Positions 2,148-23,933 of a DNA stretch of 59,363 nt are shown in pieces (position 1 is the stretch's first letter; each line of letters starts with the position of its first letter). Origin of the DNA: Porphyromonadaceae bacterium (GTDB lineage: Bacteria; Bacteroidota; Bacteroidia; Bacteroidales; Porphyromonadaceae). The translations under genes were made by a program, and so were the position numbers. A model generated the notes under the pieces. It was not told where the DNA came from. It searched no databases and worked only from the letters and a program-made list of their open reading frames with translations. The stretch covers positions 9,457-68,819 of the forward strand of contig JAUMYV010000002.1 of the NCBI GenBank assembly GCA_030528445.1. Direction: 5' to 3'.

Positions 2148-2237
2148 TGCTCAGATTAACCCCGAAGCAAAATCCATCCCCTAACATTTCTAGCTCTCCA
2201 TGTAGTCTGACCTCGCATCGTGAATACTTGCTCAATC

Positions 2238-2671: not shown

Positions 2672-2744
2672 CTATGATCGTCATAGAGAAGAAAATAAGC
2701 TGAAATCACCAGCTCATAAGGGGAAAAGGTGAGCTAGCATATCC

Positions 2745-3476: not shown

Positions 3477-3560
3477 ACTATAATATCCTATTATTTGAGA
3501 TAAATAATTCCAGTTAGAGAAAGTTTTTTGTTTCTAGTTTGTTTGTGTTCTGTTCTTCTG

Positions 3561-3568
3561 CAAAGTTA
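3561..3568 (-). promoter_or_regulatory. -7 promoter motif for the 2745-3476 gene
   Basis: Read on the minus strand this is TAACTTTG, matching TAnnTTTG, 85 nt before the start codon. A TTG lies upstream at shorter than usual spacing. Confidence 0.5.
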
Positions 3569-3658
3569 ATCTTTTTCCTTAGGCAATATAATGGTGGTAT
3601 ATTACTATACATTGCACTAAAAATCCACATCTGCAATGATATGGCAGAGCCTCTCACA

Positions 3659-3666
3659 TATATTTG
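3659..3666 (+). promoter_or_regulatory. -7 promoter motif for the 3713-4786 gene
   Basis: TATATTTG fits TAnnTTTG and lies 46 nt before the ATG at 3713. No clear -33 element was seen. Confidence 0.45.
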
Positions 3667-3712
3667 CCATGTCAATAGAGACAACTGAAACAAACATTTA
3701 GATAAATAATTT

Positions 3713-4786: not shown

Positions 4787-5183
4787 TCAGTTATTGCTGT
4801 CCGGTAAAGTTTTCAAGACAGAAAAATAGAGCATTCAATCCTAGTGAATCGGTTGCATCCCGTCTACTTTAGTTTTAGTAAGCCCCCCTCCATCGTCAAA
4901 TAGCATCGATTTTGTCGGACAGCCGCCCTTGAGGAAGGACGAAAGCCGTGTAATTGTACAGCTCCCGTTATCTAGGATACTGTTCTAGAGTTTTGAATGC
5001 AAACACAGAGTTGTCTATCCTCCTTTTTAGGCGTGTTTTAGCGGACAGCCAATAGATTCTACTGAATAACAGGTGTTTGGGGAATGATTTTTGAAGGTAA
5101 GTAGCTTGTGCCGGTACATTACTAGACCTTGAATGGGATTGTCAGTGAACCCAAAAGTTTTACCGGACAACAATAATAGTCAG
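4784..5183. mobile_element. MITE (386 bp) with target-site duplication
   Basis: The element runs 4791-5176. Its ends are imperfect inverted repeats of about 22 bp: left TTATTGCTGTCCGGTAAAG; the right end read inwards is TTATTGTTGTCCGGTAAAA. It is flanked by the 7-bp direct repeat TAGTCAG at 4784-4790 and 5177-5183. The interior has no usable reading frame and carries two more copies of the end-like word CGGACAGCC. It is a non-autonomous element that would need a transposase from a related insertion sequence elsewhere. Confidence 0.85.
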
Positions 5184-5217
5184 TAGACAAGCTTACTTAT
5201 CGGGCTGTACTATTTTA

Positions 5218-5225
5218 TACCTTTG
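5218..5225 (+). promoter_or_regulatory. -7 promoter motif for the WYL regulator
   Basis: TACCTTTG fits TAnnTTTG, 23 nt before the ATG at 5249 and 35 nt beyond the MITE copy of the duplication. No clear -33 element was seen, which leaves room for a role of the element's right end upstream. Confidence 0.5.
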
Positions 5226-5248
5226 TTGGGTAAGTAGAGCTGGAATAT

Positions 5249-6214
5249 ATGGGCGCAAATATCTTTGGTCGTTATGTTTGGTTAATCGAGCAATTCAGAT
5301 GTTATGGACGTCTGACCTACGAGGAGGTCAATAACCTCTGGCGTAGAAGTGGATTGAGCTATGGTGATGACCTTGCCATTCGAACCTTTCACAACCACCG
5401 AAAAGCTATCTTCGATATATTTGAGGTTGATATTGTGTGCGATATCAAGGGAGGATATAAATACTATATTGATCGTCTTGAAGATTTGGAAAAAGACGAT
5501 CTCAGGATTTGGTTGATTAGCTCCTATACTGCTATGAATCAGATTCAAGCCGACAGGATGCTGAAAGAACGCATCATCTTTGAGTATGTGCCTTCTGGGG
5601 ACAAATGGCTCAGTATAATCATAGAGGCCATGCGTAGCGACCGAGTCTTGAACATCGCCTACCAAAGCTTCAGAAGATCTGAGCCTTCCCATTTCGATAT
5701 TGAGCCCTATTACCTCAAGATTGTCAAGCGTCGATGGTATGTATTGGCACGAAACCCTTATTACTCGAGTCTCAATAAGCAAAAGAGCAGAGGAGATGGA
5801 GATAACTATCCTCATGATGTCTTTAGTATCTATGCCCTAGATCGCATCTTAGGCTGTCGGATACTAGAAACCTCCTTCTCCTTAAAAGAAGACTTCGACG
5901 CCAATGAATACTTCCACGGATGCTGTGGAGTTCTTCGTTCAACCGAAGAACCTATTAGGATTGTATTAAAAGCATACTATGACGCTCCTGATTATCTTCG
6001 TACTCTTCCGATTCATGAATCTCAGCAAGAATTGGTTGATATGAACGATGACAATGCCACATACTTCGAACTGACCGTTTGCCCTACATTTGATTTTTAT
6101 CAGTTATTATTGTCACAAGCAGATCAAATAGAGGTGCTCAAGCCAAAGTCGGTTCGCATGCAGATGAATGCCTTTGCCAAGAAGCTATTATCGTACTACA
6201 ACGAGGGGGACTAA
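5249..6214 (+). CDS. WYL-domain transcriptional regulator
   Basis: 321 residues. The N-terminal ~70 residues form a winged-helix region (RLTYEEVNNLWRRSGLS, then RTFHNHRKAIFDIF). A middle WYL domain begins near 120 (IEAMRSDRVLNIAYQSF) and contains the core FDIEPYYLKIVKRRWYVLARN with the W-Y-V variant of the name-giving motif. The C-terminal ~90 residues match the usual WYL extension. WYL proteins sense nucleic-acid or nucleotide ligands and often sit in defence or mobile islands. No defence genes are seen here, and its targets are unknown. The start follows a -7 promoter motif by 23 nt. Confidence 0.85.
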   Translation: MGANIFGRYVWLIEQFRCYGRLTYEEVNNLWRRSGLSYGDDLAIRTFHNHRKAIFDIFEVDIVCDIKGGYKYYIDRLEDLEKDDLRIWLISSYTAMNQIQADRMLKERIIFEYVPSGDKWLSIIIEAMRSDRVLNIAYQSFRRSEPSHFDIEPYYLKIVKRRWYVLARNPYYSSLNKQKSRGDGDNYPHDVFSIYALDRILGCRILETSFSLKEDFDANEYFHGCCGVLRSTEEPIRIVLKAYYDAPDYLRTLPIHESQQELVDMNDDNATYFELTVCPTFDFYQLLLSQADQIEVLKPKSVRMQMNAFAKKLLSYYNEGD

Positions 6215-6347
6215 TAGACATCGCCCCTATATCTAAAGGATAGTATATGTAACCACTCCGTGATAGTAACCTCTACAACCAACATCCTTATACGCTGAAT
6301 ATCTGCGCCTTGCTGTATATCTGTGCGATTCTCCCTATTTCTTAACT

Positions 6348-6452
6348 GCCCCGATGTGTACACATCCGAAAAGATTAGTGCAGAGAAATTCTAAAATCTT
6401 TGCTCTAATGCAATGAAATTACTCAAAATTCATTTTTTTTAATATAAATCTT
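6348..6452 (+). repeat. Short internally deleted copy (B) of the dispersed repeat
   Basis: This carries the repeat core (GATGTGTACACATC, then CCGAAAAGATTAGTGCAGAG) and then jumps to the repeat's end (AATATAAATCTTGCC), missing about 200 bp present in copy A. The core here is a perfect 14-bp palindrome. Confidence 0.7.
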
Positions 6453-6589
6453 GCCTCTCACCCAAACCTCCTCAATCTCCCCTAAATCCATAGCGCGTTG
6501 CGCGCCCCTTAATCAAGCATATTCTGCCCAATATGAATGCTATCGGCAAGAGGCTGTGCAAGTGAAGCACAAAGCACCAAAAATATGTG

Positions 6590-6679
6590 TAATTTCGTGG
6601 TGTAAAAGGCTGTGATGCAAAGCTCGTTGACGTCGCTCTACAACAAGGAGCAGACAGTCGAGCTAGCGCGCCCTTTTAC
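6590..6679 (+). promoter_or_regulatory. Candidate promoter and structured leader RNA of the tetrapyrrole operon
   Basis: TAATTTCG at 6590-6597 is a near match to TAnnTTTG and would start transcription close to 6604. The following ~75 nt can fold into stacked helices: GTAAAAGG 6602-6609 with CCTTTTAC 6672-6679; AGCTC 6621-6625 with GAGCT 6660-6664; and GTCGCTC 6632-6638 with GAGCAGAC 6648-6655. The ATG lies 23 nt further on. No conserved words of the cobalamin riboswitch were found, so the ligand, if any, is unknown. Confidence 0.4.
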
Positions 6680-6702
6680 CCCAAAACTATAACTAGAACA
6701 TA

Positions 6703-7896
6703 ATGAAGCTACATCGAAAAAGTTTTGTGATGCTATCCGTAGCTTGCTTGGCTATGGCACTCCTATCGCTACACTCCTCCTGCGGACAACATACTGGCAC
6801 GCAAGGCACAGCTCAGTTGCAAGCCGAGATTGACTCTATCGACTTTGCCCATCCAGTACAATTTCATCACGCCCGAACGGTGCAGGTGGCTAACTACCCC
6901 GACCACAAAGAGCTTGTGGTTTTCTCTCCGGGACAGGCGGATACTCTAGCGACCTACATCCTATATCCTCGCACTGGGAGCAGACCGCAAAATATCAAAA
7001 CTGGTGCGATTGCTATCCCCATACCCGTACAGCGAATAGCCTGCCTATCCACGCCCCAAGTCGGCACACTGCCCCTGCTGGGTGCCTCCGACCGACTCGT
7101 CGGGGCATCGAACCTAGAGAATATCAATAGCCCCGAGGTTCGCCAGCACATCAACGAGGGTAAAGTCCTTGAGATAGCTCGTGGTATGAGCGAGAATAAA
7201 GAAAGCGTCTTGGCATGCAGCCCCGAAGTCGTGCTACAAGACTTCTCCCGTATGGATGAACAGGATGTTGAGCTAATGAAGGTGGGGATTATGCCTGTAC
7301 TCTTCAACTCGTGGAAGGAACAGGACCTACTGGGGCGTGCAGAGTGGCTCAAAGTCTCGGGGATGCTTCTAGGGCTAAATCAGCGAGCAGACTCGATCTT
7401 TAGTCGCATCGCCCACGACTACGAAGAAGCTCGCCAGATTGCCACCAATACCCAAGACACCATACCCATCTTGTACGGCCTGGACTATAAGGGTATGTGG
7501 TATATCCCTGGTGAATATAGCTACCCCACAGCCATGTTTCGTGATGCTGGGCTCAAGTACGACTACATCCCTGGGGAGGCCAATAGTACGCCCGTGAGCT
7601 TCGAGTACGTTTTCAGCCGACACCGCCATGCCAAAATCTGGATCAGTGTGATGACGGGTAAGATCTACACCAAGCAAGACTTCACCGCCCTCAATGAGCG
7701 CTATACCTACTTTGATGCAGCCAAAGAGGGAGGTAAGATATTCCTCGACCGTAAGCGTGTCAATGAGTTCGGTGGCAATGACTACTGGGAGAGTGGCCCC
7801 TACAGACCAGACCTTATCCTCAAAGACCTCATCAAAATGACGCGCCCCGAGCTACTGCCCGACTACGAACTGTATTACTTCATCGAACTCAAGTAG
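6703..7896 (+). CDS. Periplasmic-binding lipoprotein of an iron-complex/B12-type ABC importer (BtuF/HmuT/FecB-like)
   Basis: 397 residues. Residues 1-27 form a lipoprotein signal (hydrophobic SVACLAMALLSL, probable acylated Cys27 in HSSC). A TroA/BtuF-like fold follows, with PVQRIACLSTPQVGTLPLLGASDRLVGAS near 105-140 and ESVLACSPEVVLQDFS near 175. It should capture an imported metal-tetrapyrrole or similar complex in the periplasm and deliver it to the permease encoded 6 nt downstream. An N-terminal ~100-residue extension precedes the usual start of the fold. Substrate is not readable from sequence; the cluster argues for a corrinoid or heme-type compound rather than a siderophore. First gene of the operon. 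Confidence 0.85.
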   Translation: MKLHRKSFVMLSVACLAMALLSLHSSCGQHTGTQGTAQLQAEIDSIDFAHPVQFHHARTVQVANYPDHKELVVFSPGQADTLATYILYPRTGSRPQNIKTGAIAIPIPVQRIACLSTPQVGTLPLLGASDRLVGASNLENINSPEVRQHINEGKVLEIARGMSENKESVLACSPEVVLQDFSRMDEQDVELMKVGIMPVLFNSWKEQDLLGRAEWLKVSGMLLGLNQRADSIFSRIAHDYEEARQIATNTQDTIPILYGLDYKGMWYIPGEYSYPTAMFRDAGLKYDYIPGEANSTPVSFEYVFSRHRHAKIWISVMTGKIYTKQDFTALNERYTYFDAAKEGGKIFLDRKRVNEFGGNDYWESGPYRPDLILKDLIKMTRPELLPDYELYYFIELK

Positions 7897-7902
7897 GCAG
7901 GT

Positions 7903-8931
7903 ATGCGACAGAAGGTTTTCTTCATCGTCACGAGCATCCTCCTCGTGGTGCTGTTTATCCTTGACCTCATTTGGGGCACGATACAAGTATCCGTCCCAGA
8001 GGTGTTCTCTGCGCTTTTTGCAGAGGACGAGAGCAATACGATGGTATATCTGATACGCAACTTCCGCCTGCCTAAGGCTCTAGCCTCTGTCCTCGCTGGT
8101 GCTGGCATATCTGTCTGTGGTTTGATGATGCAAAATCTCTTCCGCAATCCTCTAGCCGATACCTCTATCTTGGGTATCGGGAGCGGAGCAGGCGTGGGTG
8201 TCGCATTCTACACCATGGCTTTCGGCATTTTTCCCTCTCTAGGCACAGGAGCTGGCGTGTTGGACACATGGGGGCTGGTCGTATCAGCCTTTTTGGGTTC
8301 GCTCGTGGTATTGCTCATCATCACTTTCGTTGCGTCATGGCTACAAGACATCATCTCGGTACTCATCGTAGGGGTGATGATTGGGTTTATCGCCAGTTCG
8401 TTCATCTCGATCCTGCAGTTCCTTAGCGACGAAGAGACGCTCAAGGGCTATCTGCTCTGGTCTTTTGCTTCGGTCTCTGGCATTACTTGGAGGCAACTGT
8501 ACGTCCTAGCGCCGTCGGTTCTGCTGGGTCTAGCGATGGTATTCATGATGCCGAAGTATATGAATGCGATGACACTAGGGGAGAACTATACGCGGAGCAT
8601 AGGGATCAACCCCTCTAGAGTGAGGCTGATGATGATCCTGACGACCTGCCTGATCAGCGGAGCCATCACAGCCTTTGCAGGGCCTATCGCCTTTTTGGGC
8701 ATCGCAGTGCCACACTTCACTCGAGTGGTCTTTGGCGCTTCCGACCACCACATACTCATCCCGGGAACAATCCTCGTAGGGGCTACCCTAATGCTGGGTT
8801 GCGATCTGCTCACCCAAGTACCAGGGAAGATGCTGGTGCTACCAATCAACGCTATCACCTCCCTAATTGGCGCCCCTGTGGTTATCCTAGTCATCGCGCG
8901 TAATAGTCGCCGACGTGTCGTCTTCAGCTAA
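7903..8931 (+). CDS. FecCD/BtuC-family ABC transporter permease
   Basis: 342 residues with about nine or ten hydrophobic helices. The family hallmarks are visible: RNFRLPKALASVLAGAGISVCGLMMQNLFRNPLADTSILGIGSGAG near residues 48-95, and the coupling region GPIAFLGIAVPHFTR near 262-276. It forms the inner-membrane channel that imports heme, corrinoids or ferric complexes together with the lipoprotein before it and the ATPase after it. Spacing to each neighbour is 6 nt, so translation is probably coupled. Confidence 0.93.
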   Translation: MRQKVFFIVTSILLVVLFILDLIWGTIQVSVPEVFSALFAEDESNTMVYLIRNFRLPKALASVLAGAGISVCGLMMQNLFRNPLADTSILGIGSGAGVGVAFYTMAFGIFPSLGTGAGVLDTWGLVVSAFLGSLVVLLIITFVASWLQDIISVLIVGVMIGFIASSFISILQFLSDEETLKGYLLWSFASVSGITWRQLYVLAPSVLLGLAMVFMMPKYMNAMTLGENYTRSIGINPSRVRLMMILTTCLISGAITAFAGPIAFLGIAVPHFTRVVFGASDHHILIPGTILVGATLMLGCDLLTQVPGKMLVLPINAITSLIGAPVVILVIARNSRRRVVFS

Positions 8932-8937
8932 GCATCT

Positions 8938-9954
8938 ATGTGTCCTCCCCAAATCATAAATATACACCAATTGACGACGGGCTACCGAGCCTCTCGGGCA
9001 GAGCATGTAGTCTCTCGCGGCCTTGATCTGACAACCTATTCGGGTGAGCTGATTGTCTTGATGGGGCCTAATGGCTCGGGCAAGTCCACACTGATGCAGA
9101 CCATAGCAGGGCTACTTCGTCCACTCTCTGGGGAGGTAAACATCGCCGGGCATCCGATTCAGAATATCAAGGACAAAGAGCGAGCGAAGTTGATGAGTCT
9201 AGTGCTTACCGAGAGGATCGAGCACACGAACCTGACGGTCTGGGACATCATCACCACAGGACGCTACCCCTATCTAGGACAGCGAGGGAAGCTACGCCCA
9301 GATGATATCGATATCCTACAGTATTGCCTCAAGCTCTGTAACTTGCAAACGATGGCACAGAGGCGGTTCTCTGAGCTAAGCGACGGCGAGAAGCAGAGGG
9401 TGATGATCGCTCGTGCCCTAGCCCAAGAGACCCCTCTGATGCTTCTAGACGAGCCAACCGCACACCTCGATTTGCCAAGTCGGCTAGAGGTGCTGACGAT
9501 GCTACGTCGATTGGCCAGAGAGCTTGGCAAGAGCATCTTGGTCTCTACCCATGAGCTAGATTTAGCTCTGCAGTGGGCCGATGGTATTTGGCTATTCGAC
9601 CGAGGCGGTGGCGTCTGTGCTGGAGCGCCCGAGGAGCTAGTCCTCTCGGGGGATATAGAGCGTGTTTTCGGGAACGAACGCTTGCACTTCGATCCTAGTT
9701 CGGGAGAGTTCCGCTTGATTACCAACAATCAGCAGGCTCTGCGCCTATCTGCCGAGGGGATCACACTCGCGTGGGCGACGCGCGCTTTGCAGCGCATGGG
9801 CTACGATGTAGTGAGCGATAGCCAAGTGCACTGCCCGATCGTCGAGGCGCACAAGCTAGGCTGGTTGCTTCGCTGTCATGGTCATGAATTCATTGCCCAC
9901 AATCTAAGCGATCTGCAGAAGCTACTCTACGATCGTTATCCCATACAGGTCTAG
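8938..9954 (+). CDS. ABC transporter ATPase (FecE/BtuD-like) with C-terminal extension
   Basis: 338 residues. The ABC domain has Walker A GPNGSGKS at 43-50, signature LSDGE at 147-151, Walker B LMLLDEP at 167-173 and the switch His205 in STHELDLAL. It powers the permease encoded just upstream. After residue ~240 comes an extra ~95-residue domain (GITLAWATRALQRMGYDVV, LGWLLRCHGHEFIAHNLSDLQKLL) absent from the shortest family members. The extension resembles a small alpha/beta regulatory domain, but its role is not known to me. Four nucleotides separate it from the CobN-like gene. Confidence 0.93.
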   Translation: MCPPQIINIHQLTTGYRASRAEHVVSRGLDLTTYSGELIVLMGPNGSGKSTLMQTIAGLLRPLSGEVNIAGHPIQNIKDKERAKLMSLVLTERIEHTNLTVWDIITTGRYPYLGQRGKLRPDDIDILQYCLKLCNLQTMAQRRFSELSDGEKQRVMIARALAQETPLMLLDEPTAHLDLPSRLEVLTMLRRLARELGKSILVSTHELDLALQWADGIWLFDRGGGVCAGAPEELVLSGDIERVFGNERLHFDPSSGEFRLITNNQQALRLSAEGITLAWATRALQRMGYDVVSDSQVHCPIVEAHKLGWLLRCHGHEFIAHNLSDLQKLLYDRYPIQV

Positions 9955-9957
9955 GCT

Positions 9958-12900
9958 ATGGCATATCGCATTGTATTTATCCTAGATGCACATACGCACC
10001 TTAGCCCGATGGAGCGACTCCGCTCTAGGCTGGCTGCATTGGGTGCAGAGGTGTCGGTCGAGAGGCTCTCGACCAAACGACTAGACGAGACGGAATGGAC
10101 AGATGAGCCATGGCAAACCCTAGAGCGAGCGGACTTCGTTGTCTTGCTTACACATGGTAGCGTGGCTTACTTCCGCAAGTTTGCATGCTTCCGCGAGCGC
10201 ATAGTCCCCTCCCATTTGGTCTTTATGCTCAACAGCATGCCCGAGGAGATGCAGGAGATGCTACAGTGGTGCAAGCTGTCGGACGGAGATAGAGTCCAAC
10301 TGACGCGTTACATTCGCTGCCGCAACGAGGAGAATCTCGTGCAGCTCTGCCTCTTCGTCGCCTCTAGATATGGCGACAGCCGCCTCCCCTATCAAGCCCC
10401 TACGCGCCCCTGCTGGGACGGGCTATATCTACCAGAGGGCATAGATAGCCCCGATGCCTACAAACAAAGCCTAGCCGAGGCCAAAGCACAAGGGGGCATC
10501 GTTGTAGGGATACTCATCCCTTACTATCTGTATGCCGAGCAGAATCTGCGTCATATTGATGCGCTCATCTACGAGCTTAGACGCTTGGAGGTAGCTCCAC
10601 TAGCGCTATTCTCCACCATGGCCAAGGATACAGAGATTGGTTCTCGCGGTATCTATTCGGCTATGGCAGAGGCATTCTACGACGAGGGGCAACTGCTGCC
10701 CGAGGTCATCATCAATACTCTAGGCTATTCTCTAGGTATCTTCGAGGGGGCGACCCTCGTCTGGCAATGCGCCGAAGGGACATCTACGCCTCTGCACGAG
10801 ATGAATATCCCGATCTTGCAGGCCTACCACACGCTCTTCAGCGAGAGCGAATGGCGAGAGCGCATCGAGGGTGTAGATGCCAGCACGCTCGTCTCGGCAA
10901 TATATTACCCAGAGTTCGACGGACAGATTGATGGCTATCCGATAGGAGCCAAAGACGACAGCGACCCCGAACGTCAGCAGATCGTTCCCCTACGTGAGGG
11001 TATTGAGACTGTGGCTAGCTTAGCCAAACGCTGGGCGATACTACGGCACAAGCCCAACGCCGACAAGCGCATCGCCCTCATCCTACACAATATGCCACCG
11101 AGAGCCGATATGATAGGCTCTGCAGCAGGGCTAGACACACCAGCCTCGGTCTACGAGATCCTCAGATGCCTGCAACGTATGGGCATCCACTGCCCGATGG
11201 ACTTCGGTAGTGGCAATGCCATCATGCAAGCCATCGCAGACGGGCTGAGCAACGACAGCACTTGGCTCAACGACGAGGAGGTACTGCGCCGCGCCATAGA
11301 CCACATCGCCTCGCTAGACTATCGGTCGTGGTATGCCTGCTTCGAGGCCTCCGCACGGCAAATGATTGAGGCAGACTGGGGGCAAGCTCCCGGAACCTTT
11401 AAGGTTGTTGATGGCGTCCTACCAGTCCCTGGCCTGCTTCTAGGGAATGTCTTTATTGGGCTACAGCCCCCGCGTGGCTACGAGGAGCATGCCGAGAAGA
11501 TATATCATAGCCCATCGGTAGCCCCACCTCATTTCTATCAAGCTATCTATGCGTGGATTCGCTACACATTCGAGGCGGATGTGATTATTCACCTAGGCAC
11601 TCACGGCTCGCTAGAGTGGTTGCCCGGCAAGGAGAAAGGCTTGAGCAGTGCTTGCTTCCCCAAGATCAATATAGACGATCTGCCCCATCTATACCCCTAC
11701 CATACGACCGTCATCGGAGAGGGCATACAAGCCAAGCGACGCTCCTCGGCGGTACTCCTACATCATTTGGAGCCTAGCTCGACCGAGGCAGGCAGCTACG
11801 ATGAGCTTGGTGAGCTAGACAACCTTGTCTGTCGCTACCTCTGCCAGGAGGCTAGCCCTGCACAGAAAGAACTGATAGCAGAGCGCATCAACGCTCTAAG
11901 CACAAGCCTATCGCTCGACAGAGATCTCGAGCATATCCACACCCAAGAGCTAGGCCAAGAGGCACGTATTGAGGCGCTACACGATTGGCTTGGCGTCCTC
12001 AAACGCTCCATGGTCAAGGACGGGCTACATATCTACGGACAAGCCCCCAAAGGAGAGAGGCTCAGCAACTTCCTGCGCACGATGCACCGGCTACCGCTCG
12101 GTGGCTTCGAGGCGATAGAGGAGCTACTCGCTCGGTACTACGGCTTCGACTATGAGTGTCTAAGGAGAGAGCCCCACTGCAAATGGGGCGAGGCTGAGAC
12201 CTCTATCATGGTGCTAGAGAGGCTCACACAAGTGGCGAAGCAACTATTCGAAGCCCTCGTAGAGGCTCCCGAGGAGCTCCCGACGCGGACGGATCTGTAT
12301 CACCTATTGGGCGAAGGAGACCAAACCTATCTAGACCACCTATCGGCATTGCTCAGATTCTCGGCCACAGAGGTACTCCCTCGTGTACTGCGCACCACAG
12401 ACGAACTCGTCAACCTAGAGCGTGGACTATGTGGAGGATTCGTCCCTCCACGCAAGGGTGGTAGCCCAACCCGTGGGCATCTCGACATCCTACCTACTGG
12501 CTGCAACATGTACGCCATCGACCCCAACGAGCTCCCCTCAAGGGTCGCATACGAGGTTGGGCTGCGCTTAGGCGAGCGTCTGCTAGATCGGTACCTGCAG
12601 CAGGAGCATCAGTACCCCGAGAGCTTAGCTTTTGTACTATACTCAGGAGACCAGATGCGCATGCATGGGGAGGATATTGCCGAGATTCTCTGGCTGATGG
12701 GAGTTCGCCCTACGTGGTTGAGTCCAACCTCCGACCGCGTCATCGGACTAGAGGTGATTTCTCTCGACGAGCTTGGTAGACCTCGTATCGACGTCGTCAG
12801 CCGCATTTCTGGGTTACTACGAGACACCTTCCCCAGCATCATCGCTCTGCTAGATGATGCAGCCAAGATGACGGCGACATTGGACGAGGCACCAGAGGAC

Positions 12901-13725
12901 AATTATGTACGTAAGCACTTCCTCCAAGATCTACAAGAACTCAAAGACGGCGGGGTAGATCCGAAGCTCGCGGAGCAAGAGGCATTGATTAGGGTCTTCG
13001 GTTGCCCACCGGGGAATTACGGCGGTGGGATAGACATCCTCATCGAGAGTAAAGCTTGGCAGGGTACAGAGGATCTGGCCACCACGGCCATTACATGGGC
13101 TGCTCACGCCTACAGCCGAGATCTACATGGGCAGGTTTCACGAGAGAACCTCGAGAGGCAGCTCGGTAAGGTCTGCGCTACGGTCAAGAACGAAAACACT
13201 ATAGACTTTGACCTCTACGACGTAGACGACGAATTTATCTACCACGGAGGTCTCATTGCAGCCGTTACTCAATGTAGCGGACGCAAGCCACTCTCCTTCT
13301 ATGGCAATAGTAGTGACCCGCGCTTCATCGAGGTGCGCAAACTGGAGGAAGAGAGTGCTCGAGTCTTGCGTTCGCGTCTGCTCAATCCTATTTGGATCGA
13401 GGGGCTCAAACAGCATGGCTACAAGGGAGCCCAAGACATTGCCTACAATATGGACAACGTCTTCGGGTGGAGTGCGTCGGCAGGTATCGTGGAGGATTGG
13501 GCCTATGAGGCTCTGACGGAGCATTGGCTAGGCAACGAAGCTAATCGAAAGTTCATCGAGGAGAATAATCCTTGGGCTCTGTATGCTATTGCAGAGAAGC
13601 TCCTCGAGGCCGTACAACGGGGGCTGTGGCAAGAACCCAGCGAAGAGGCCCTTCGTCTGGCACAAGATATTTATCTCTCGAGCGAGGGCTTGCTCGAGGA
13701 TGGTGGTACAATTATAGAAGAATAG
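9958..13725 (+). CDS. cobN: CobN/BchH-family large chelatase subunit
   Basis: 1255 residues, close to the usual length of CobN (~1250-1300) and BchH. Readable landmarks are VIIHLGTHGSLEWLPGKEKGLS near 542-563, the family-typical GNVFIGLQPPRGYEE near 497, GGFVPPRKGGSP, LPTGCNMYAIDPNELPS near 840-860, and VFGCPPGNYGGGIDILIESKAW near 1015. CobN inserts Co2+ into hydrogenobyrinic acid a,c-diamide with AAA+ partners. The relative HmuS of Bacteroidota hmu operons is instead linked to release of iron from heme. The two AAA+ partner genes follow directly, which favours an ATP-driven chelatase-like complex. The direction of metal transfer and the substrate are not shown by the sequence. Confidence 0.9.
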   Translation: MAYRIVFILDAHTHLSPMERLRSRLAALGAEVSVERLSTKRLDETEWTDEPWQTLERADFVVLLTHGSVAYFRKFACFRERIVPSHLVFMLNSMPEEMQEMLQWCKLSDGDRVQLTRYIRCRNEENLVQLCLFVASRYGDSRLPYQAPTRPCWDGLYLPEGIDSPDAYKQSLAEAKAQGGIVVGILIPYYLYAEQNLRHIDALIYELRRLEVAPLALFSTMAKDTEIGSRGIYSAMAEAFYDEGQLLPEVIINTLGYSLGIFEGATLVWQCAEGTSTPLHEMNIPILQAYHTLFSESEWRERIEGVDASTLVSAIYYPEFDGQIDGYPIGAKDDSDPERQQIVPLREGIETVASLAKRWAILRHKPNADKRIALILHNMPPRADMIGSAAGLDTPASVYEILRCLQRMGIHCPMDFGSGNAIMQAIADGLSNDSTWLNDEEVLRRAIDHIASLDYRSWYACFEASARQMIEADWGQAPGTFKVVDGVLPVPGLLLGNVFIGLQPPRGYEEHAEKIYHSPSVAPPHFYQAIYAWIRYTFEADVIIHLGTHGSLEWLPGKEKGLSSACFPKINIDDLPHLYPYHTTVIGEGIQAKRRSSAVLLHHLEPSSTEAGSYDELGELDNLVCRYLCQEASPAQKELIAERINALSTSLSLDRDLEHIHTQELGQEARIEALHDWLGVLKRSMVKDGLHIYGQAPKGERLSNFLRTMHRLPLGGFEAIEELLARYYGFDYECLRREPHCKWGEAETSIMVLERLTQVAKQLFEALVEAPEELPTRTDLYHLLGEGDQTYLDHLSALLRFSATEVLPRVLRTTDELVNLERGLCGGFVPPRKGGSPTRGHLDILPTGCNMYAIDPNELPSRVAYEVGLRLGERLLDRYLQQEHQYPESLAFVLYSGDQMRMHGEDIAEILWLMGVRPTWLSPTSDRVIGLEVISLDELGRPRIDVVSRISGLLRDTFPSIIALLDDAAKMTATLDEAPEDNYVRKHFLQDLQELKDGGVDPKLAEQEALIRVFGCPPGNYGGGIDILIESKAWQGTEDLATTAITWAAHAYSRDLHGQVSRENLERQLGKVCATVKNENTIDFDLYDVDDEFIYHGGLIAAVTQCSGRKPLSFYGNSSDPRFIEVRKLEEESARVLRSRLLNPIWIEGLKQHGYKGAQDIAYNMDNVFGWSASAGIVEDWAYEALTEHWLGNEANRKFIEENNPWALYAIAEKLLEAVQRGLWQEPSEEALRLAQDIYLSSEGLLEDGGTIIEE

Positions 13726-13781
13726 CTCTCGGGGAGACAGCCTATTTAGAGAGCAATCAAGTGGACAAACAACGACAATAG

Positions 13782-14693
13782 ATGATACGAACTTATTATC
13801 CTTTCGCGGCCATCGTAGGGCAGGAGCGCATGAAGCTAGCCTTGCTGCTCAATATGATTTATCCCAAAATCGGGGGCGTCCTCATCCTCGGAGAGAAAGG
13901 TACGGCTAAGAGCACAATCGTGCGAGGCCTGTGTGGGCTAGACCCCGAGATGAGCGTCGTGGAGCTACCCATATCTGCCACGGAGGATAAGCTAGTCGGG
14001 AGCATAGACGTAGAGCACGCAATCCGCACGGGGGAGACTCGCCTCGAGCCGGGACTACTCCACGCAGCCCACGGCAACATCCTCTACGTGGACGAAATCA
14101 ACCTACTAGAAGATCATCTTGTAGACATCCTGCTAGATGTGTCTGCCATGGGAGTCAATTACATAGAGCGCGAGGGCATATCATACAGCCACCCTTCGCA
14201 ATTTGTGCTAGTGGGCACGATGAACCCAGAGGAGGGTGATTTGCGCCCTCAGCTCCTCGACCGCTTCGGTCTATCGGTACGCGTGGCAGGGGAGCGAGAG
14301 CTTGAGCTACGCACGGAGATCTTGCGCCGTCGGCTCGCCTATGACCGTTCGCCCGACGCATTTATCGCAGCCTATCAGGAGGAAGAGCAGCATCTCGCCC
14401 GAACTATTGCCCAAGCGCGTAGCCTGGTGCATGAGGTTACATACGGACAAGAAATCCTATCGCTCATCGCTCGCATCGCGATCGAGCTAGAGGTCGATGG
14501 GCATCGGGCGGACTTGACGCTCCTAAAGACTGCTATTGCCTTAGCCGCCTACGAAGGGAGAAAGGAGGTCAAGCCCATGGATGTATTCCGAGCGACCGAA
14601 CTGGCACTCCCGCACCGAATGAGACGCTTGCCTTTCGACTCTGCCGACTTCAGCGCCGAAGATATGCGTCGCTTCTGTGAAACACTCAGCTAA
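13782..14693 (+). CDS. chlI: ChlI/BchI-like AAA+ chelatase ATPase subunit
   Basis: 303 residues. Walker A is GEKGTAKS at 37-44 and Walker B ILYVDEIN at 100-107. Sensor-1 is in [10 protein letters not shown] and the arginine-finger region is [13 protein letters not shown], followed by the helical lid ending ALPHRMRR. It is shorter than typical BchI (~340), mainly at the ends. BchI-type ATPases form a hexamer with the D subunit and drive metal insertion by the large H/N subunit. The gene lies 56 nt after the CobN-like gene and 5 nt before the ChlD-like one. Confidence 0.92.
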
Positions 14694-14698
14694 TCCCC

Positions 14699-16525
14699 AT
14701 GCTACTGGCAGACATCATCGCACAGCCAAGAGCCATCGAAGCCCTGCACATCGCATTGGCTTCGCCCTATCCCTGCAGTCTGCTGATGAGCGGAGCTTCG
14801 GGCGTGGGGAAGAGTGCCTTGCTGTCTGCGGTACGCTCTCTGCCGTGGGAGCGCAGAGTGCTGTCACTACCTGCCACACTCTCGGCCGAGGAGCTAGGAG
14901 CGCACAGCGATATTGAGGAGACGCTTAGGCAGGGTAGACTAATTTATCATAGTAGCCTGCCCGAGAGGATATGGGGCTCTGTCGTGTTGATTGACAACGC
15001 TCATCTGATGTCTCCCGAGGTGCTGGCTCGTCTGCTAGACCTACAAGCCAGTAGCCCTCACGATAGGCCGACCTGCCTCATCGCAGCTGTCAATACAGAG
15101 GAGGGCGGTCTGCGCAGTACACTGCTCGATCGCTTCGATATGTACGTAGAGCTAGCTCAGCTAAGAGATCCCCTCGTCCGCATACAAGTGATGAGACAAG
15201 CCATGCGAAGTGAAGCCTCTACCGCCCAGCTAGATCACGACACCGCACTCAAACTCCGCGACTACCGAGAGCGATGCCTCAGGATTTCGCCCACAGACAG
15301 CGACTTCGTACTGGCCGCAGAGCTGTGTCGCAATGCTTTCGTGCTAGGGCATCGTGCCGACATTGCCCTACTGCGTACGGCCTCTGTCTATGCTACGATG
15401 CAGGAGCGAACGACACTACTTGCAGAGGATTTCGCTGCCGTCAAAGATTTGGTGCTAGTTCATCGCATCAACAACACGCAGTCGCCCACAGAGACGCCAG
15501 ACGACTCCCCTCGTCAGCCAGACGAAACACCTCCTCCCCGAGAGAACACACCTCCAGAGTATGAACCGCTAGAGTCACCTCATTCGGCGGAGTCTTCGGG
15601 AGCAACCACGCAAACCAATCGAGATGCACAACAGAGACTCGGCATCATCCCAGAGCAACGGGAGGACATTGCCTCGATCCATCTAGAGTCCGATCCCATC
15701 AGCCTACTGGCTCGCCACAGCAAGGAGGCTGTAGGCTTGGGCTCACGGCTCAAGAGTCTAGCTGCAAGACCACGAGGACGCTACTACAAGTCGACAGTAC
15801 ATAGAACAGATGCAAGCTACAAAGTCGCCCTACTGGCGACCATTCGAGAGGCCATACCCTATCAGAGGCAGCGCAGAGAGCTACAATCCTCCGAGCTCGC
15901 CATCATCATAGCCTCCTCGGACCTGCGCTACAAGCTCTGCCGCAGACGTACGGGCTATCATATTCTCTTCGCCGTAGATGCCAGTGGCTCTATGGGTGCC
16001 CAGAAGCGTATGCACCGAGTGAAAGGGCTAATCATAGAGCTCCTACGTCGTGCCTACGAAGAGCGAGACTATGTGGGCCTACTAACCTTCCGAGCAGATG
16101 AGGCCAAGCTCATCCTACCTCTGACCAAAAGCATCGCTCGAGCCCATACGCTACTCAAGGATCTGCAGACGGGTGGGCGCACGCCGCTCTACCTCGGTCT
16201 GAGTCGTAGCCTAGAGGTACTGCAGCACGCGGCGCGTAAGGGCAAAGGCGTAACGCCCGTTTTGGTCGTCGTGACCGATGGACGTGCGACCTCGCGATAT
16301 CCAGGGGAGAATAGCCCCGAGGCACTGCGCCAGCTTGGGTGGGAGTTTAGCTACATTGGAGCGAAGATACTCGTCATAGATAGCGAAGAGGGCTTCATCC
16401 GTATGGGCAAAGCTCGTCAGCTAGCCGAGCATCTCGGCGCATCGGCATGCTATCCTATGGAGCAGCTGATACAGCAGAGCGCAATCAAGCAACTAAATAA
16501 AACAACGCAATATGGAGACTATTGA
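14699..16525 (+). CDS. chlD: ChlD/BchD-like chelatase subunit (AAA+ plus VWA)
   Basis: 608 residues. An N-terminal AAA+ domain has Walker A GASGVGKS at 32-39. Its Walker B reads VVLIDNAH (95-102), with Asn where an active ATPase has Glu, as expected for a non-hydrolysing D subunit. Residues ~260-320 form a proline- and acid-rich linker. The C-terminal von Willebrand A domain carries the metal-site motif DASGSMG near 424-430 and a later VTDGRAT. This is the platform subunit between the ATPase ring and the large chelatase. It overlaps the next gene by 14 nt. Confidence 0.92.
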   Translation: MLLADIIAQPRAIEALHIALASPYPCSLLMSGASGVGKSALLSAVRSLPWERRVLSLPATLSAEELGAHSDIEETLRQGRLIYHSSLPERIWGSVVLIDNAHLMSPEVLARLLDLQASSPHDRPTCLIAAVNTEEGGLRSTLLDRFDMYVELAQLRDPLVRIQVMRQAMRSEASTAQLDHDTALKLRDYRERCLRISPTDSDFVLAAELCRNAFVLGHRADIALLRTASVYATMQERTTLLAEDFAAVKDLVLVHRINNTQSPTETPDDSPRQPDETPPPRENTPPEYEPLESPHSAESSGATTQTNRDAQQRLGIIPEQREDIASIHLESDPISLLARHSKEAVGLGSRLKSLAARPRGRYYKSTVHRTDASYKVALLATIREAIPYQRQRRELQSSELAIIIASSDLRYKLCRRRTGYHILFAVDASGSMGAQKRMHRVKGLIIELLRRAYEERDYVGLLTFRADEAKLILPLTKSIARAHTLLKDLQTGGRTPLYLGLSRSLEVLQHAARKGKGVTPVLVVVTDGRATSRYPGENSPEALRQLGWEFSYIGAKILVIDSEEGFIRMGKARQLAEHLGASACYPMEQLIQQSAIKQLNKTTQYGDY

Positions 16526-17660
16526 ATTTGAGAACTACTTATTCTCTACCCCGATGGGCGATAAAGCCTATTTCCACGAAGAGAGCCTAATTGTCGTCTT
16601 CGCGGGAAAACGAGGTGTCGTCAGCGCATCGAACCACAACGGAGGCTATCGTGATGACCTGCGCTATGTTTTTAATCACAGCTGTGGTCGAAATCCGTTG
16701 ATACAGCAGAAGCAATGCCCGGGGATAAAAGGCAAAAACATTGCAGAGCACTATGCAATCACCGCCACAGAGATCGGCCTACCAGCCGAATTATCTACAG
16801 GCATGGGAACGGCTGCTCTGATTGAGAATAGAGCTATCGCCACACGCTCCCACTACGGCGTGGAGGTTATGGCGGTCGCCACCGCAGGGGTTGATGTCAA
16901 TGGCGGACGAGCTGGCGACCCCGCAGCCTACGATGAGTTTGCTCAAGCGAGCCTCCTACCTCCTCCGGGAACCATCAACATCATGCTTTTCATCAACGCT
17001 CGCCTAGATCCCGGCGCATTGACGCGTGCTATTGTGACGGCGACGGAGGCCAAAACGGCTGCCCTGCAGGAGCTGATGGCGGTAAGCCTGTACTCCGAAG
17101 ACCTCGCCACGGGTTCGGGAACGGACTGCATCATCGCCGTCTGCAATGAAGAGTCCTCTACCACGCTCTTCAATACGGGCAAACATGTCCTACTTGGCGA
17201 GATGATTGGGCAGAGCGTCAAGGAAGCAGTGAAGCAAGCCTTAGCCAACCAAGTAGGTATGACGCCCCATCGCCAAGCCTCTATCGAATGGCAATGCAAG
17301 CGCTACAGCATCACTCAGGAGCGAATCTTACACTTTGCCCTGCATATGGACGTAGGGGCGGATGCCGATAAGCTCAAGCCTACGATACAGAGCATCGACA
17401 GAGATAGCCACCTCTTCGCCTCGGTGGTCAGTATCGTCCATCTGGTAGATCAGCATCGCTGGGGAATGGTCGCTGCGGATAGCCTGCTAGATCTTGCCCA
17501 AACGATGCTCGATGCCATGCTCGAGAGAGCAGGCATCGCCACACTCAACCTAAGACGAGAGCGGAACCACGCCTCAGAGCCAGAGACGCCTGTCTATCGT
17601 CTGCTCATAAGCGATATAATCCTAGTCTTGGCTCATATTGCGTTACATCGCTCACACTAA
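16512..17660 (+). CDS. cbiZ: CbiZ-type adenosylcobinamide amidohydrolase with C-terminal extension
   Basis: 382 residues. Roughly residues 25-240 match CbiZ: GVVSASNHNGGYRDDLRYVFNH, AIATRSHYGVEVMAVATAGVDVNGGRAGDPA, and a C-terminal TGSGTDCIIAVCN. CbiZ removes the aminopropanol side chain of (adenosyl)cobinamide to give cobyric acid, letting a cell rebuild scavenged corrinoids with its own lower ligand. The last ~140 residues (from about SIEWQCKRYSITQ) are not part of the usual domain and look helical; I do not recognise them. The gene overlaps the chlD-like gene by 14 nt. It is the strongest sign that the operon handles corrinoids. Confidence 0.85.
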   Translation: METIEFENYLFSTPMGDKAYFHEESLIVVFAGKRGVVSASNHNGGYRDDLRYVFNHSCGRNPLIQQKQCPGIKGKNIAEHYAITATEIGLPAELSTGMGTAALIENRAIATRSHYGVEVMAVATAGVDVNGGRAGDPAAYDEFAQASLLPPPGTINIMLFINARLDPGALTRAIVTATEAKTAALQELMAVSLYSEDLATGSGTDCIIAVCNEESSTTLFNTGKHVLLGEMIGQSVKEAVKQALANQVGMTPHRQASIEWQCKRYSITQERILHFALHMDVGADADKLKPTIQSIDRDSHLFASVVSIVHLVDQHRWGMVAADSLLDLAQTMLDAMLERAGIATLNLRRERNHASEPETPVYRLLISDIILVLAHIALHRSH

Positions 17661-17692
17661 GCATATTTACCTATTTAATAAAGACAGCGACA

Positions 17693-19813
17693 ATGGAAAA
17701 GAAATTAATCCTCGCCTTACTGGCGGCTGGTCTGGCTACGGTGCAGCTACAGGCCACGCAGCATCCAGCTGACTCTCTGCAGCAACTATCGGAGCTAACA
17801 GTCTATGGTACGCGCACCATCGTACCGCTCAAGAAAATTCCTAGCAAGGTTGAGCTCATCCAAGCCCCCGTACTAGAGCGTAGCAGCAGTCTCAACCTAG
17901 GAGATCTGCTCAAGGCGCACAGCTCCGTAGATGTGGTACAATATCCTGGTTTCTTAACCAACATCGGGATGCGTGGTCTACGACCCAATGGTCGCTACGT
18001 CATGGTGCTGACCAATGGCATCCCTACGGGAACCGAGAACGTGTCTTCTCTAGGCATCAGCGACATCTATCAAGTAGAGGTTCTCAAGGGTCCTTTCTCT
18101 GCGATTTATGGTACTGGAGCGATGGGGGGAGTAATCAATCTCGTTACCCGCAAAAGTAAAGGCGACATCACAGGTGCAGCATCTGTGAGCTATGGGAGCT
18201 ACTCTACGGCACGTGGTTCCCTAACCCTAGGAGGCGGTATCGTAGGCGGCTTGTCTTTTGATGCTAGTCTAGCCTACAATGCTCAAGGCAAGGACTACAT
18301 CTCGGGAAGTAAATATCTGATCTCCAAAACCGAACTTGAGCGTACAATCCTTGATCCTAAAACCCAAGCAGCAGCCAAGCGCGGTAGCCAATACAAATCT
18401 ATGACAGGGCGCATCCGCCTAGGGTACGACTTCTCGCCCGAATGGTCTCTGAATCTCTACAACTCCCTTTTCTCTGCCAATAACCTCCCCATAGGTAGTC
18501 ATCACTGGTTCACTGGACCTCTTACGGGCAAAGACCTCAACCGTTACTCTACATCACTCGAGCTATCAGGTCGCCTCGCAGGTCATGCACTTCAGTTCAC
18601 TCCCTACTACAACTTAGAGCGGGCAAATTATCTCAATAAATACGATAGCCCAGATGCCATCGCCACAACCAAAACTAAGGTTAAAACTCTAGGGTTCCTG
18701 TTACAAGACAACATCAGCATCGCTGGCCAAAAGCTCACCATCGGGCTAGATGGACAGCGTATGGATAGAGAGAGTCTTAGCTTCGATGGCCAAACTGGAC
18801 AAGGCAAGAAGCCCTATCAACCAGCTTATGGGACAAGAACGCTTGGTGCTCTAGCACAGAGTAATCTAGGTTTCTTCGGTGATCGTCTGAATCTATCATT
18901 AGGAGCACGTCTAGACTACATCAAATTCCTCCTTGAGGCAGACCCTTATCTCAAAAATACCTCAAAAACCGAGACTTATCTAAACGTAACACCTAATATC
19001 GGTCTGAAGTATGAGCTCATCCCCGGGCTATTGCTTCATGCGACTGCTGGCGGAGGCTTCTCGGCTCCAGATGCCTATCAGAAATCTGGAGAATATGAAG
19101 GAGACTACGGCAAGACAAGAGGGAACCCCGAGCTGAAGCCTGAGCGCTCGTTTACCATAGATGGGGGGATAGGCTACTCCAACCAGAAGCTTGGCCTCTC
19201 GGTCGATGCGACCTACTTCCACACCGATATTCGGGATCTTATCTACTCGGTATCGGGGGCAGACAAGGTCAAGACCTTTGCCAATGGCGATAAGGCACGC
19301 CTATCAGGGCTGGAGTTTCTGATCTCATACGACTTCGGTAGTCTCGTGAACTACGACTTCTCTCTCCGCACCTATCTGAATGCTACGATGATGCTTGACC
19401 GTAAGATGTACAACCAGAAGGCGGATATCTGGGATGAGATGCTTCTCGTGCGCAAGCAAAATATAACCTTTGGGATCGACTTCAAGCACAGAGACCTAGA
19501 GATTGACCTCAAGGGACGCTATGCAGGACCATCGATTGACAACAACTGGAATACCAGAGATGGAGCAAGCAATACCGTTATTCGTCCTGAGCTCCCCAAG
19601 CTTTTGGCTGCAGAGTATCCAGAGATTGCCAAGAATAGGCAGATTTTGAATCCTCGCTTTATGACTCTCGATGCATCGGCACATTATACCTTCTTCGACA
19701 AGCTACGCCTTAGCGTACATCTGAATAACCTCTTAGACGAACATTACTTCGAGAAAGATGGGTATAATATGCCAGGGCGCAACTTCCTTGTCGGCCTAAG
19801 CTACCGCTTCTAG
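17693..19813 (+). CDS. TonB-dependent outer-membrane receptor
   Basis: 706 residues. A signal peptide (MEKKLILALLAAGLATVQLQA) is followed by a plug domain (IGMRGLRPNGRYVMVLTNGIP, VEVLKGPFSAIYGTGAMGGVINLVTRKS) and a beta-barrel ending in the aromatic terminus VGLSYRF. Near 455-481 it has FSAP and later NPEL, matching the FRAP/NPNL-type pair of heme receptors such as HmuR (YRAP/NPDL), though related barrels can show similar words. It would bring the tetrapyrrole across the outer membrane for the ABC importer at the operon's start. It is 32 nt after cbiZ and is the last gene before a palindromic terminator. Confidence 0.92.
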   Translation: MEKKLILALLAAGLATVQLQATQHPADSLQQLSELTVYGTRTIVPLKKIPSKVELIQAPVLERSSSLNLGDLLKAHSSVDVVQYPGFLTNIGMRGLRPNGRYVMVLTNGIPTGTENVSSLGISDIYQVEVLKGPFSAIYGTGAMGGVINLVTRKSKGDITGAASVSYGSYSTARGSLTLGGGIVGGLSFDASLAYNAQGKDYISGSKYLISKTELERTILDPKTQAAAKRGSQYKSMTGRIRLGYDFSPEWSLNLYNSLFSANNLPIGSHHWFTGPLTGKDLNRYSTSLELSGRLAGHALQFTPYYNLERANYLNKYDSPDAIATTKTKVKTLGFLLQDNISIAGQKLTIGLDGQRMDRESLSFDGQTGQGKKPYQPAYGTRTLGALAQSNLGFFGDRLNLSLGARLDYIKFLLEADPYLKNTSKTETYLNVTPNIGLKYELIPGLLLHATAGGGFSAPDAYQKSGEYEGDYGKTRGNPELKPERSFTIDGGIGYSNQKLGLSVDATYFHTDIRDLIYSVSGADKVKTFANGDKARLSGLEFLISYDFGSLVNYDFSLRTYLNATMMLDRKMYNQKADIWDEMLLVRKQNITFGIDFKHRDLEIDLKGRYAGPSIDNNWNTRDGASNTVIRPELPKLLAAEYPEIAKNRQILNPRFMTLDASAHYTFFDKLRLSVHLNNLLDEHYFEKDGYNMPGRNFLVGLSYRF

Positions 19814-19832
19814 TCATAGTAGAGACAAGGTA

Positions 19833-19884
19833 AAAAGGAATTGGGGCGTGGTGAATGTACATTCACCACGCCCCAATTCCTTTT
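19833..19884. terminator. Bidirectional terminator, 52-bp perfect palindrome
   Basis: Bases 19833-19858 are the exact reverse complement of 19859-19884: 26 paired bases with no spacer. The stem is flanked by A-runs on one side and T-runs on the other, so it can stop transcripts from both the receptor gene (stop at 19813) and the convergent M16 gene (stop at 19908). Confidence 0.9.
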
Positions 19885-19907
19885 GTCTGTAGAGCCCTAC
19901 AACAGAA

Positions 19908-23610: not shown

Positions 23611-23869
23611 GTTTAGCGTGTAGATTAGTCAGAGACCTCACAATTTGTATTTTGATTAATTCATGACCTATTTGAACACGAATCGGAAGAAAAATTCCAG
23701 AAAAAAAATTCTGTCTCTACACTTCGTTAGCCCGACCTATCCAAATCCTAGATATTATAAGCCTTATTGAACCCGTCTATGCAGTAAAATGAACGAGGAA
23801 AAATGGCTAAATATAGGCTCAAAAGATGCTGAAAAACATATTAGGTATTTTCTGTCGCATATTTTTACT

Positions 23870-23877
23870 TACCTTTG
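23870..23877 (+). promoter_or_regulatory. -7 promoter motif for the TPR/AraC regulator
   Basis: TACCTTTG fits TAnnTTTG and lies 56 nt before the ATG at 23934. It sits inside the region that a longer reading of the gene would translate, which supports the downstream start. Confidence 0.5.
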
Positions 23878-23933
23878 ACTCAACGTTTTTCCAACTAGAA
23901 TACATAACATCTTATCATAAAACTAGGACAACT

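Follow-up and report, generated by a model that had tools for sequence, protein, structure and literature searches.

A class I chelatase cassette in a probable corrinoid salvage operon of Porphyromonas, and its possible role in loading imported corrinoids with cobalt

A stretch of 59,363 nucleotides from a Porphyromonas genome (the window; assembly GCA_030528445.1, contig JAUMYV010000002.1, positions 9,457 to 68,819 of the forward strand) carries an eight-gene operon that joins an import system, a full class I chelatase (CobN, ChlI and ChlD) and the amidohydrolase CbiZ. The substrate is very probably a corrinoid rather than heme. Our preferred reading, to which we give a little less than an even chance, is that the chelatase inserts cobalt into imported corrinoids that lack it. 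A cobaltochelatase cassette would have been added between btuD and cbiZ of a salvage operon for receptor, BtuF, BtuC, BtuD and CbiZ. The receptor and the ATP-binding cassette (ABC) transporter would carry corrinoids to the cytoplasm, CobN would bind those with a cobalt-lacking corrin, an ATP-driven AAA+ ring of ChlI and ChlD would power the insertion of Co2+, and CbiZ would cleave cobinamide-type side chains to yield cobyric acid, from which CbiB and the lower-ligand enzymes would rebuild the cell's own cobamide. Both the imported substrate and the direction of the metal step are things that we infer. An initial annotation, made from the letters of the window, had already linked an import system with CbiZ and a complete class I chelatase and had proposed an imported tetrapyrrole as the substrate, a view that we uphold as the most likely one.

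All eight genes lie on one strand in the order and over the span first annotated, in agreement with the complete set of open reading frames (ORFs) and with the Pfam domains (Table 1). The successive intergenic gaps, 5' to 3', are 6, 6, 3, 56, 5, -14 and 32 nt, so that the spacing first reported, 4-56 nt or overlap, holds for all but the gap of 3 nt. The domains are, in gene order, Peripla_BP_2, FecCD, ABC_tran, CobN-Mg_chel, AAA_5 with AAA_lid_2, AAA_lid_2 with VWA, CbiZ, and Plug with a TonB barrel. The N-terminus of BtuF, MKLHRKSFVMLSVACLAMALLSLHSSCGQ, was judged by eye to be a lipoprotein signal, and a sequence search with this protein found no match in the PDB. The top NCBIfam models for the BtuD ATPase are those of F420-0, FecE, corrinoid and heme ABC ATPases, all four below cut-off. 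TIGR02442 (641 positions) is the top model for both ChlI and ChlD, with scores below its cut-off. Located motifs show that Walker A and LLDRF are kept in both proteins and a metal ion-dependent adhesion site (MIDAS) in ChlD. CobN, ChlI and ChlD would form one complex.

Table 1. Features of the operon and its leader (positions are those of the window).
Feature	Position	Strand	Evidence
Leader hairpin, candidate cis element	6598..6681	+	fold z-score -4.54, 0/200 shuffles as stable (6590-6690 tested)
btuF/htrA-like substrate-binding lipoprotein	6703..7896	+	PF01497, 107.8 bits
btuC/htrB-like permease	7903..8931	+	PF01032, 253.5 bits; top NCBIfam model BtuC, below cut-off
btuD/htrC-like ATPase	8938..9954	+	PF00005
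cobN, large substrate-binding chelatase subunit, no membrane ends	9958..13725	+	PF02514, 1096 bits
chlI, AAA+ motor subunit, Walker A/B and LLDRF	13782..14693	+	TIGR02442, TIGR02030, both under cut-off
chlD, AAA and von Willebrand A subunit, MIDAS DASGSM	14699..16525	+	PF13519, TIGR02442
cbiZ, adenosylcobinamide amidohydrolase	16512..17660	+	PF01955, 184 bits (cut-off 27)
TonB-dependent receptor (tlr-like), probable corrinoid receptor	17693..19813	+	PF00593, PF07715; TIGR01785 under cut-off

The distribution of the cassette was followed in 61 genomes, namely the one carrying the window (G000; 2.27 Mb in 134 contigs, 93% complete) and 60 relatives. A short CobN like that of the window occurs in seven (G000, G004, G012, G014, G023, G030 and G031), and in all seven cbiZ lies ~3 kb downstream. 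CbiZ is over cut-off in 13 genomes, six of them without short CobN, and 48 have neither gene, which gives a hypergeometric probability of 3.9e-6 for the association, not corrected for kinship; three weak CbiZ fragments (61-codon frames in G018, G019 and G021) were excluded from the counts. The full eight-gene order is found in six of the seven genomes. The btuC of G023 is divided into two ORFs (L099:7408-8442), and the other seven genes of that operon read through. A cassette-free operon, btuF-btuC-btuD-cbiZ-tonB, occurs in three genomes (G005, G010 and G025), including P. gulae and P. loveana, and G034 has a four-gene btuFCD-cbiZ operon with no chelatase. A cobalamin riboswitch, an element that usually leaves its genes on at low B12, stands directly before btuF in all six other cassette operons (L099-L104) and also precedes all three five-gene operons. 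This count excludes G034 and the btuF-cbiZ pair of G030:C3, where the riboswitch stands before the neighbouring receptor gene. Corrinoid control is thus general for this type of operon, though not shown for the window copy. The leader hairpin of the window sits just before the first gene, and the riboswitch of the relatives lies further upstream. The idea that this hairpin is a repeat element was discarded, the leader (6520-6702) being single-copy and matching only itself in the genome.

The initial annotation saw no corrin-ring gene and for that reason held a plain role in de novo B12 synthesis to be unlikely. The observation is correct within the window, whose sole tetrapyrrole-methylase match (29147-29836) reads as RsmI, but the reason fails because G000 carries the anaerobic corrin-ring set, with CbiD, CbiG and CbiK, on other contigs. 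The set includes CobA-HemD, HemC, HemA, a CbiQ-CbiO-NAD_binding_7 fusion, a TP_methylase-CbiC fusion (CbiHC), the fusions CbiGF and CbiJD, CbiA, CbiB (G000:C71, E 9.4e-95), CbiM and CbiK, together with a CbiL 42 and 45% identical to proteins in the CbiL position of two relatives' cob operons. A protein of 402 amino acids, under the Pfam cut-off, is called CbiET-like from its size, its place and its 51% identity to the relatives' copies. The conclusion first drawn survives in part, since the genome also encodes the early cobalt chelatase, a cytoplasmic-looking CbiK, which already provides the cobalt step of de novo synthesis, so that this step does not call for CobN. This CbiK adjoins cbiM and has no evident signal peptide as judged by eye. 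The corresponding gene run in G012 and P. pasteri is cbiK, cbiM-like, cbiQO/sirC, hemA, hemC and cobA/hemD, and in G023 CbiK stands directly upstream of a cbiHC-cbiET-cbiGF-cbiJD run. Two His residues are invariant in all 30 aligned CbiK sequences. An aerobic-type late-insertion layout, with cobN among ring genes and no early chelatase, is not what G000 shows. A complete ring pathway in a genome with no other cobN had been named as evidence against action on an imported tetrapyrrole, and G000 comes close to this, its ring set being present and its other PF02514 protein being of the HmuS type. A near-complete pathway does not, however, decide the role of the operon, because a separate CbiK is encoded, next to cbiM here and in the company of other cob genes in relatives. 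Plain de novo synthesis was rejected as a first reading, CbiK being present and the cassette following cbiZ, and a role in synthesis is retained below as the main rival. Elsewhere among the genomes, CbiK-family proteins with a lipoprotein-like N-terminus (IhtB-like, by eye) occur at L052-L054, L068, L069, L071 and L075, in contrast with the cytoplasmic-looking CbiK of other genomes.

The initial annotation allowed for insertion, exchange or removal of the metal. Genes turned on by B12 shortage, in the neighbourhood of import and CbiZ, suit insertion and not removal. Removal of cobalt is also chemically disfavoured, cobalt corrins resisting it unless the ring is destroyed (PMC6771967). Certain purple sulfur bacteria, if deprived of cobalt during growth, produce corrinoids that lack the metal, and B12 forms when cobalt is added to hydrogenobalamin (PMC6771967, PMC7693184). 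That ChlI and ChlD replace CobS and CobT is an earlier proposal (PMC9227772).

The main rival explanation is a back-up route of late cobalt insertion, in which an ATP-driven chelatase, on at low B12, would rescue the cell's own corrins that CbiK failed to metalate, and in which the position beside the transporter would reflect shared B12 control rather than an imported substrate. We regard this as rather unlikely. CbiD, CbiB and CbiK, the last with no evident signal peptide by eye, are present in all seven short-CobN genomes, the riboswitches before the relatives' operons suit such a route, and a function as a cobalt chelatase in synthesis has been put forward for CobN with ChlI/ChlD (PMC9227772). 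The distribution of the genes argues otherwise. The cassette occurs with cbiZ and btuF in all seven genomes, no ring gene lies in the ~19 kb stretches around it in six relatives, and short CobN is absent from all 18 genomes that have CbiD and lack cbiZ. CbiD is over cut-off in 31 of the 61 genomes, PF06180 in 30, and CbiB is present in 31; all 13 CbiZ genomes also have CbiD. Of the co-occurrence initially put forward, the pairing of CobN with cbiZ is borne out in seven of seven genomes and the expected absence of ring genes is not (CbiD in seven of seven). The enzymes of anaerobic ring synthesis are, moreover, thought to need cobalt early, which speaks against a late step, as does the occurrence of the module in metagenome-assembled genomes (MAGs) without a CbiC match.

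These MAGs come from a survey of cbiZ neighbourhoods in the best 80 of at least 520 confirmed loci, ranked by likeness to the Porphyromonas CbiZ; the loci often end at contig ends, and neighbours were named by best BLAST match at E 1e-8. A homologue of CobN, ChlI or ChlD lies near cbiZ in 27 of the best 80 loci and in 25 of the 73 outside Porphyromonas. Among these 73, nine have both CobN and ChlI/ChlD and 34 a homologue of BtuF, C or D, all counts that stand without a random-gene control. Five of the 19 genomes searched have no CbiC match, namely a Cytophagales, a Syntrophaceae, a Methanomicrobiaceae, a Methanosaeta and an Acidobacteria MAG; the Methanomicrobiaceae locus has ChlI/ChlD and no CobN, and the Acidobacteria locus has no chelatase. 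Tetrapyrrole-methylase matches, counted without annotation, number two each in the Cytophagales, Syntrophaceae and Methanomicrobiaceae MAGs and four in that of Methanosaeta, the positive controls giving six and eight. The strongest individual piece of evidence for a role of the module in salvage is the Cytophagales locus (L130). Its order is cobN (truncated by the contig start), chlI, chlD, cbiZ, riboswitch, receptor, an ORF of 370 amino acids and a second CobN, which differs from the first and scores 1443 bits on TIGR02257. This chelatase can hardly serve ring synthesis, because the genome has no CbiC match and only two tetrapyrrole-methylase matches. The methanogen loci L160, L161 and L168 have the order cbiZ-chlI-chlD-btuF followed by btuC and/or btuD homologues, with no CobN in the surrounding DNA.

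The CobN of the window is soluble and lies on the cytoplasmic cobaltochelatase side of its superfamily, apart from the membrane-anchored HmuS. It scores 815.6 bits on TIGR02257 (cut-off 822.05), which the G023 orthologue exceeds with 840.7 bits. Its top PDB match is M. tuberculosis CobN (662 bits, with homology over residues 280-1247 of 1255), HmuS scoring less (317 bits). G000 has two PF02514 proteins, the other being a protein of 1447 amino acids that matches the solved HmuS structure with 1492 bits, lies in an hmu-like locus (L116) on a different contig and has no adjacent chlI or chlD. A quick tree built from 52 rows, of which 51 differ, held seven short CobN, 19 found near cbiZ and 26 long rows, 25 of them distinct and taken from 34 full-length long rows, the other nine being called long by frame length only. 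Seven PF02514 fragment rows (G006, G011, G036 and G037) were kept off the tree and compared separately, and all match long CobN far better than short CobN. The short CobN form one clade and the long rows another, each with a Shimodaira-Hasegawa-like approximate likelihood-ratio test (SH-aLRT) support of 100, and 18 of the 19 archaeal and bacterial CobN from cbiZ neighbourhoods lie on the side of the short clade. The tree tool marks as uncertain the joining of the remaining one, from Desulfocicer, together with several of the long terminal branches, the window branch not being among them. Hydrophobic ends are absent from all seven short CobN and present in all 26 long rows; the best 19-residue hydropathy means are 0.46 and 0.46 at the two ends of the window protein and at least 1.73 and at least 2.12 in the long homologues. 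A methionine-rich HmuS insert was dropped as a discriminator, G000's own HmuS having no such stretch (7 Met in 100). Membrane-ended CobN homologues of 1321-1351 amino acids (L117, L118, L025 and L027) form a clade separate from the longer HmuS type, and in G011 and in G036 the long-type homologues (L247 and L248) are split between two regions.

This placement bears on the possibility that the complex is a proofreading or de-chelating enzyme that frees imported corrinoids of a wrong metal, or of cobalt, in the way that HmuS removes iron from heme, which we consider improbable. CobN keeps a Glu (E588, in IGEGIQAKRR) aligned with a ChlH residue that we take to be the catalytic E660 of Synechocystis, and HmuS, a member of the same superfamily, is reported on direct evidence to be a de-chelatase (PMC12583661). 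Cobalt corrins do not release their cobalt without ring damage, however, control by B12 starvation makes cobalt removal pointless, and the HmuS-type proteins form their own clade, have membrane ends and, in G000, stand without chlI and chlD. Heme de-chelation by an HmuS-like enzyme, taken as a first reading, was rejected on the tree, the topology, the partner subunits and the riboswitches of the relatives. The difference from hmu operons first pointed out, the presence of ChlI and ChlD, is upheld, and the CobN lies outside the HmuS clade.

Taken by itself, the receptor is not enough to decide the ligand. In a phmmer search of the PDB, BtuB (53 bits, plug region) ranks above heme receptors (37 bits). 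A Foldseek search with an AlphaFold model (mean predicted local distance difference test score, pLDDT, 78.8) places the heme receptor PhuR first and BtuB second, so the fold does not choose between the ligands. Profile ranks are likewise a poor guide, because the receptor beside the HmuS of G000 scores slightly higher on the B12 profile (160 bits) than on the hemin profile (154 bits); the Cytophagales receptor reaches 250 bits on TIGR01785, under cut-off. Heme receptors are recognized by a His between the FRAP and NPNL boxes, and boxes of the FSAP/NPEL type are not heme-specific, BtuB having similar ones. The FSAP and NPEL boxes of the window receptor, initially thought to point to heme, are weak evidence: the interval from FxAP to NPxL contains a His in the HmuS-adjacent receptor and in none of the nine operon receptors, and these nine also lack the plug His of the HmuS-adjacent one.

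Several observations weigh against cobalt insertion into imported corrinoids. That cobalt-free corrinoids reach these bacteria is itself something that we infer. The leader of the window has no cobalamin riboswitch (an Rfam search of 6100-6800 gave no hit at E values up to 5) and neither of the words GCCACTG and CCTGCC, each of which is present in eight of nine relatives' leaders; the four-gene operon of G034 also lacks the riboswitch, and G000 has three cobalamin riboswitches elsewhere. Transport coupling is not strict, because the operon of P. pasteri (G004) is btuF-cobN-chlI-chlD-cbiZ, without btuCD and with no receptor in the stretch read, and the btuC of G023 is divided. CbiP was not found by a PF07685 search of the incomplete G000 assembly, which gave one strong match, CbiA, and two weak partial ones. 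Beyond Porphyromonas, CbiC is present in 14 of the 19 genomes searched, the Cytophagales and other CbiC-less MAGs are of unstated completeness, and the Desulfocicer CobN (1382 amino acids, one of the 19 cbiZ-neighbour rows) falls on the HmuS/long side. The top curated profile of the receptor is TonB-hemin TIGR01785 (272 bits, cut-off 316.85), and both five-gene receptor orthologues tested exceed that cut-off (581 and 464 bits). Moreover, the P. gingivalis htrABCD-tlr locus (PGN_0687-0683) is published as a heme transport locus of an ABC transporter and a TonB receptor (PMC3764172, PMC5329018); an earlier study cited by PMC3764172 reported a rise of htr when hemin was limiting, and the hemin regulator HaeR binds the htrA promoter (PMC3764172). 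The transcription analyses of PMC3764172 itself did not show htr genes.

The hemin profile, the first rank of PhuR and the hemin response of htr are what favour uptake of heme or another porphyrin and iron handling, as the name htrABCD-tlr implies, an explanation that we hold to be very doubtful. It leaves CbiZ and the cobalamin riboswitches out of place, the diagnostic His is missing from the nine receptors, and all seven short-CobN genomes encode, in addition, a long CobN homologue in frames of 1322-1462 codons.

The operon is part of a block of 17.8 kb (2122-19906) between a tRNA-Arg (CCT) and an M16 peptidase gene. The block is missing from the relative G001, where the corresponding interval measures ~285 bp and where the M16 gene, 88% identical to that of the window, is the closest of five tested. 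A mobile-element origin was rejected: the edges share no repeat of at least 10 bases, and none of the three ORFs scanned is an integrase. The block also holds two ORFs without a Pfam match (2745-3476, minus strand; 3713-4786, plus strand) and a WYL/WCX-domain protein (5249-6214). A tetratricopeptide repeat protein with a C-terminal AraC-type helix-turn-helix lies past the M16 gene (23826-25850), and a tRNA-like match (59311-59363) is truncated at the end of the window.

The arrangement would give a class I chelatase a place outside synthesis, alongside CbiZ and an import system, in cells already equipped with CbiK. Some mouth-dwelling bacteria may thus import cobalt-free B12 rings and then insert the metal themselves. 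A wider and speculative extension, which we think unlikely on present evidence, is that cobalt-free or wrongly metalated corrinoids are traded in anaerobic communities and that the operon is the receiving end, responsible for import, cobalt-loading and remodelling. If so, the cell would use corrin rings that its neighbours made without cobalt, and CobN/ChlI/ChlD with CbiZ would be a general module of archaea, Chlorobiota, deltaproteobacterial groups and Bacteroidota.

Among known systems, htrABCD-tlr resembles the window operon in gene order and in the kinds of protein (lipoprotein, permease, ATPase, CbiZ as htrD, receptor), and differs in having no cobN-chlI-chlD while keeping a cobalamin riboswitch (L105 in G025, which we take to be P. 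gingivalis). It is equated with the five-gene operon by order and position only. The five-gene btuFCD-cbiZ-tonB loci with riboswitch in G025, P. gulae and P. loveana (L105, L106 and L110) have the order of htrABCD-tlr. On this match, htrD, labelled 'conserved hypothetical' (PMC5329018), would be CbiZ, and htrABCD-tlr is probably a corrinoid salvage operon; the probable mislabel affects how hemin and B12 nutrition in Porphyromonas are read. Genes for a receptor, for a lipoprotein-like CbiK and for BtuFCD-like proteins lie about 17 kb from the five-gene operon of G025 and fit ihtABCDE, whose IhtA is reported to be a BtuB homologue with an upstream B12 riboswitch (PMC3764172). The literature covered, which included few subscription papers, held no prior statement for Porphyromonas of a chelatase in salvage or of htr as a corrinoid salvage locus.

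The other systems share single features with the operon. The heme de-chelatase HmuS/BtuS (hmuYRSTUV) belongs to the PF02514 superfamily and is likewise import-linked in Bacteroidota; unlike the window CobN it is membrane-anchored, with ~1450 residues and an anchor at both ends (PMC13227078), works without ChlI/ChlD and falls in a separate clade. The aerobic cobaltochelatase CobNST is also a three-subunit ATP-driven enzyme, with a CobN homologous over most of its length, whereas the window has ChlI/ChlD in place of CobS/CobT, a salvage operon, and anaerobic-type ring genes with CbiK. The CbiZ system of Rhodobacter sphaeroides similarly remodels corrinoids in a de novo producer, and to our knowledge it has no chelatase. 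That system is cited in PMC8620254, which also describes in Chlorobaculum and Chlorobium a CobN/BchI/BchD cluster adjoining a cobalamin TonB receptor and records an earlier speculation that Chlorobaculum tepidum inserts cobalt into acquired cobalamin. Those clusters share with ours a class I chelatase beside cobalamin transport, but they belong to phototrophs with Mg-chelatase paralogues, while the Porphyromonas cassette lies inside one operon with cbiZ. Insertion of cobalt into imported corrinoids thus extends the Chlorobaculum tepidum idea to Porphyromonas, with new support from the contrast with CbiK, the cassette-free sister operons and the riboswitches.

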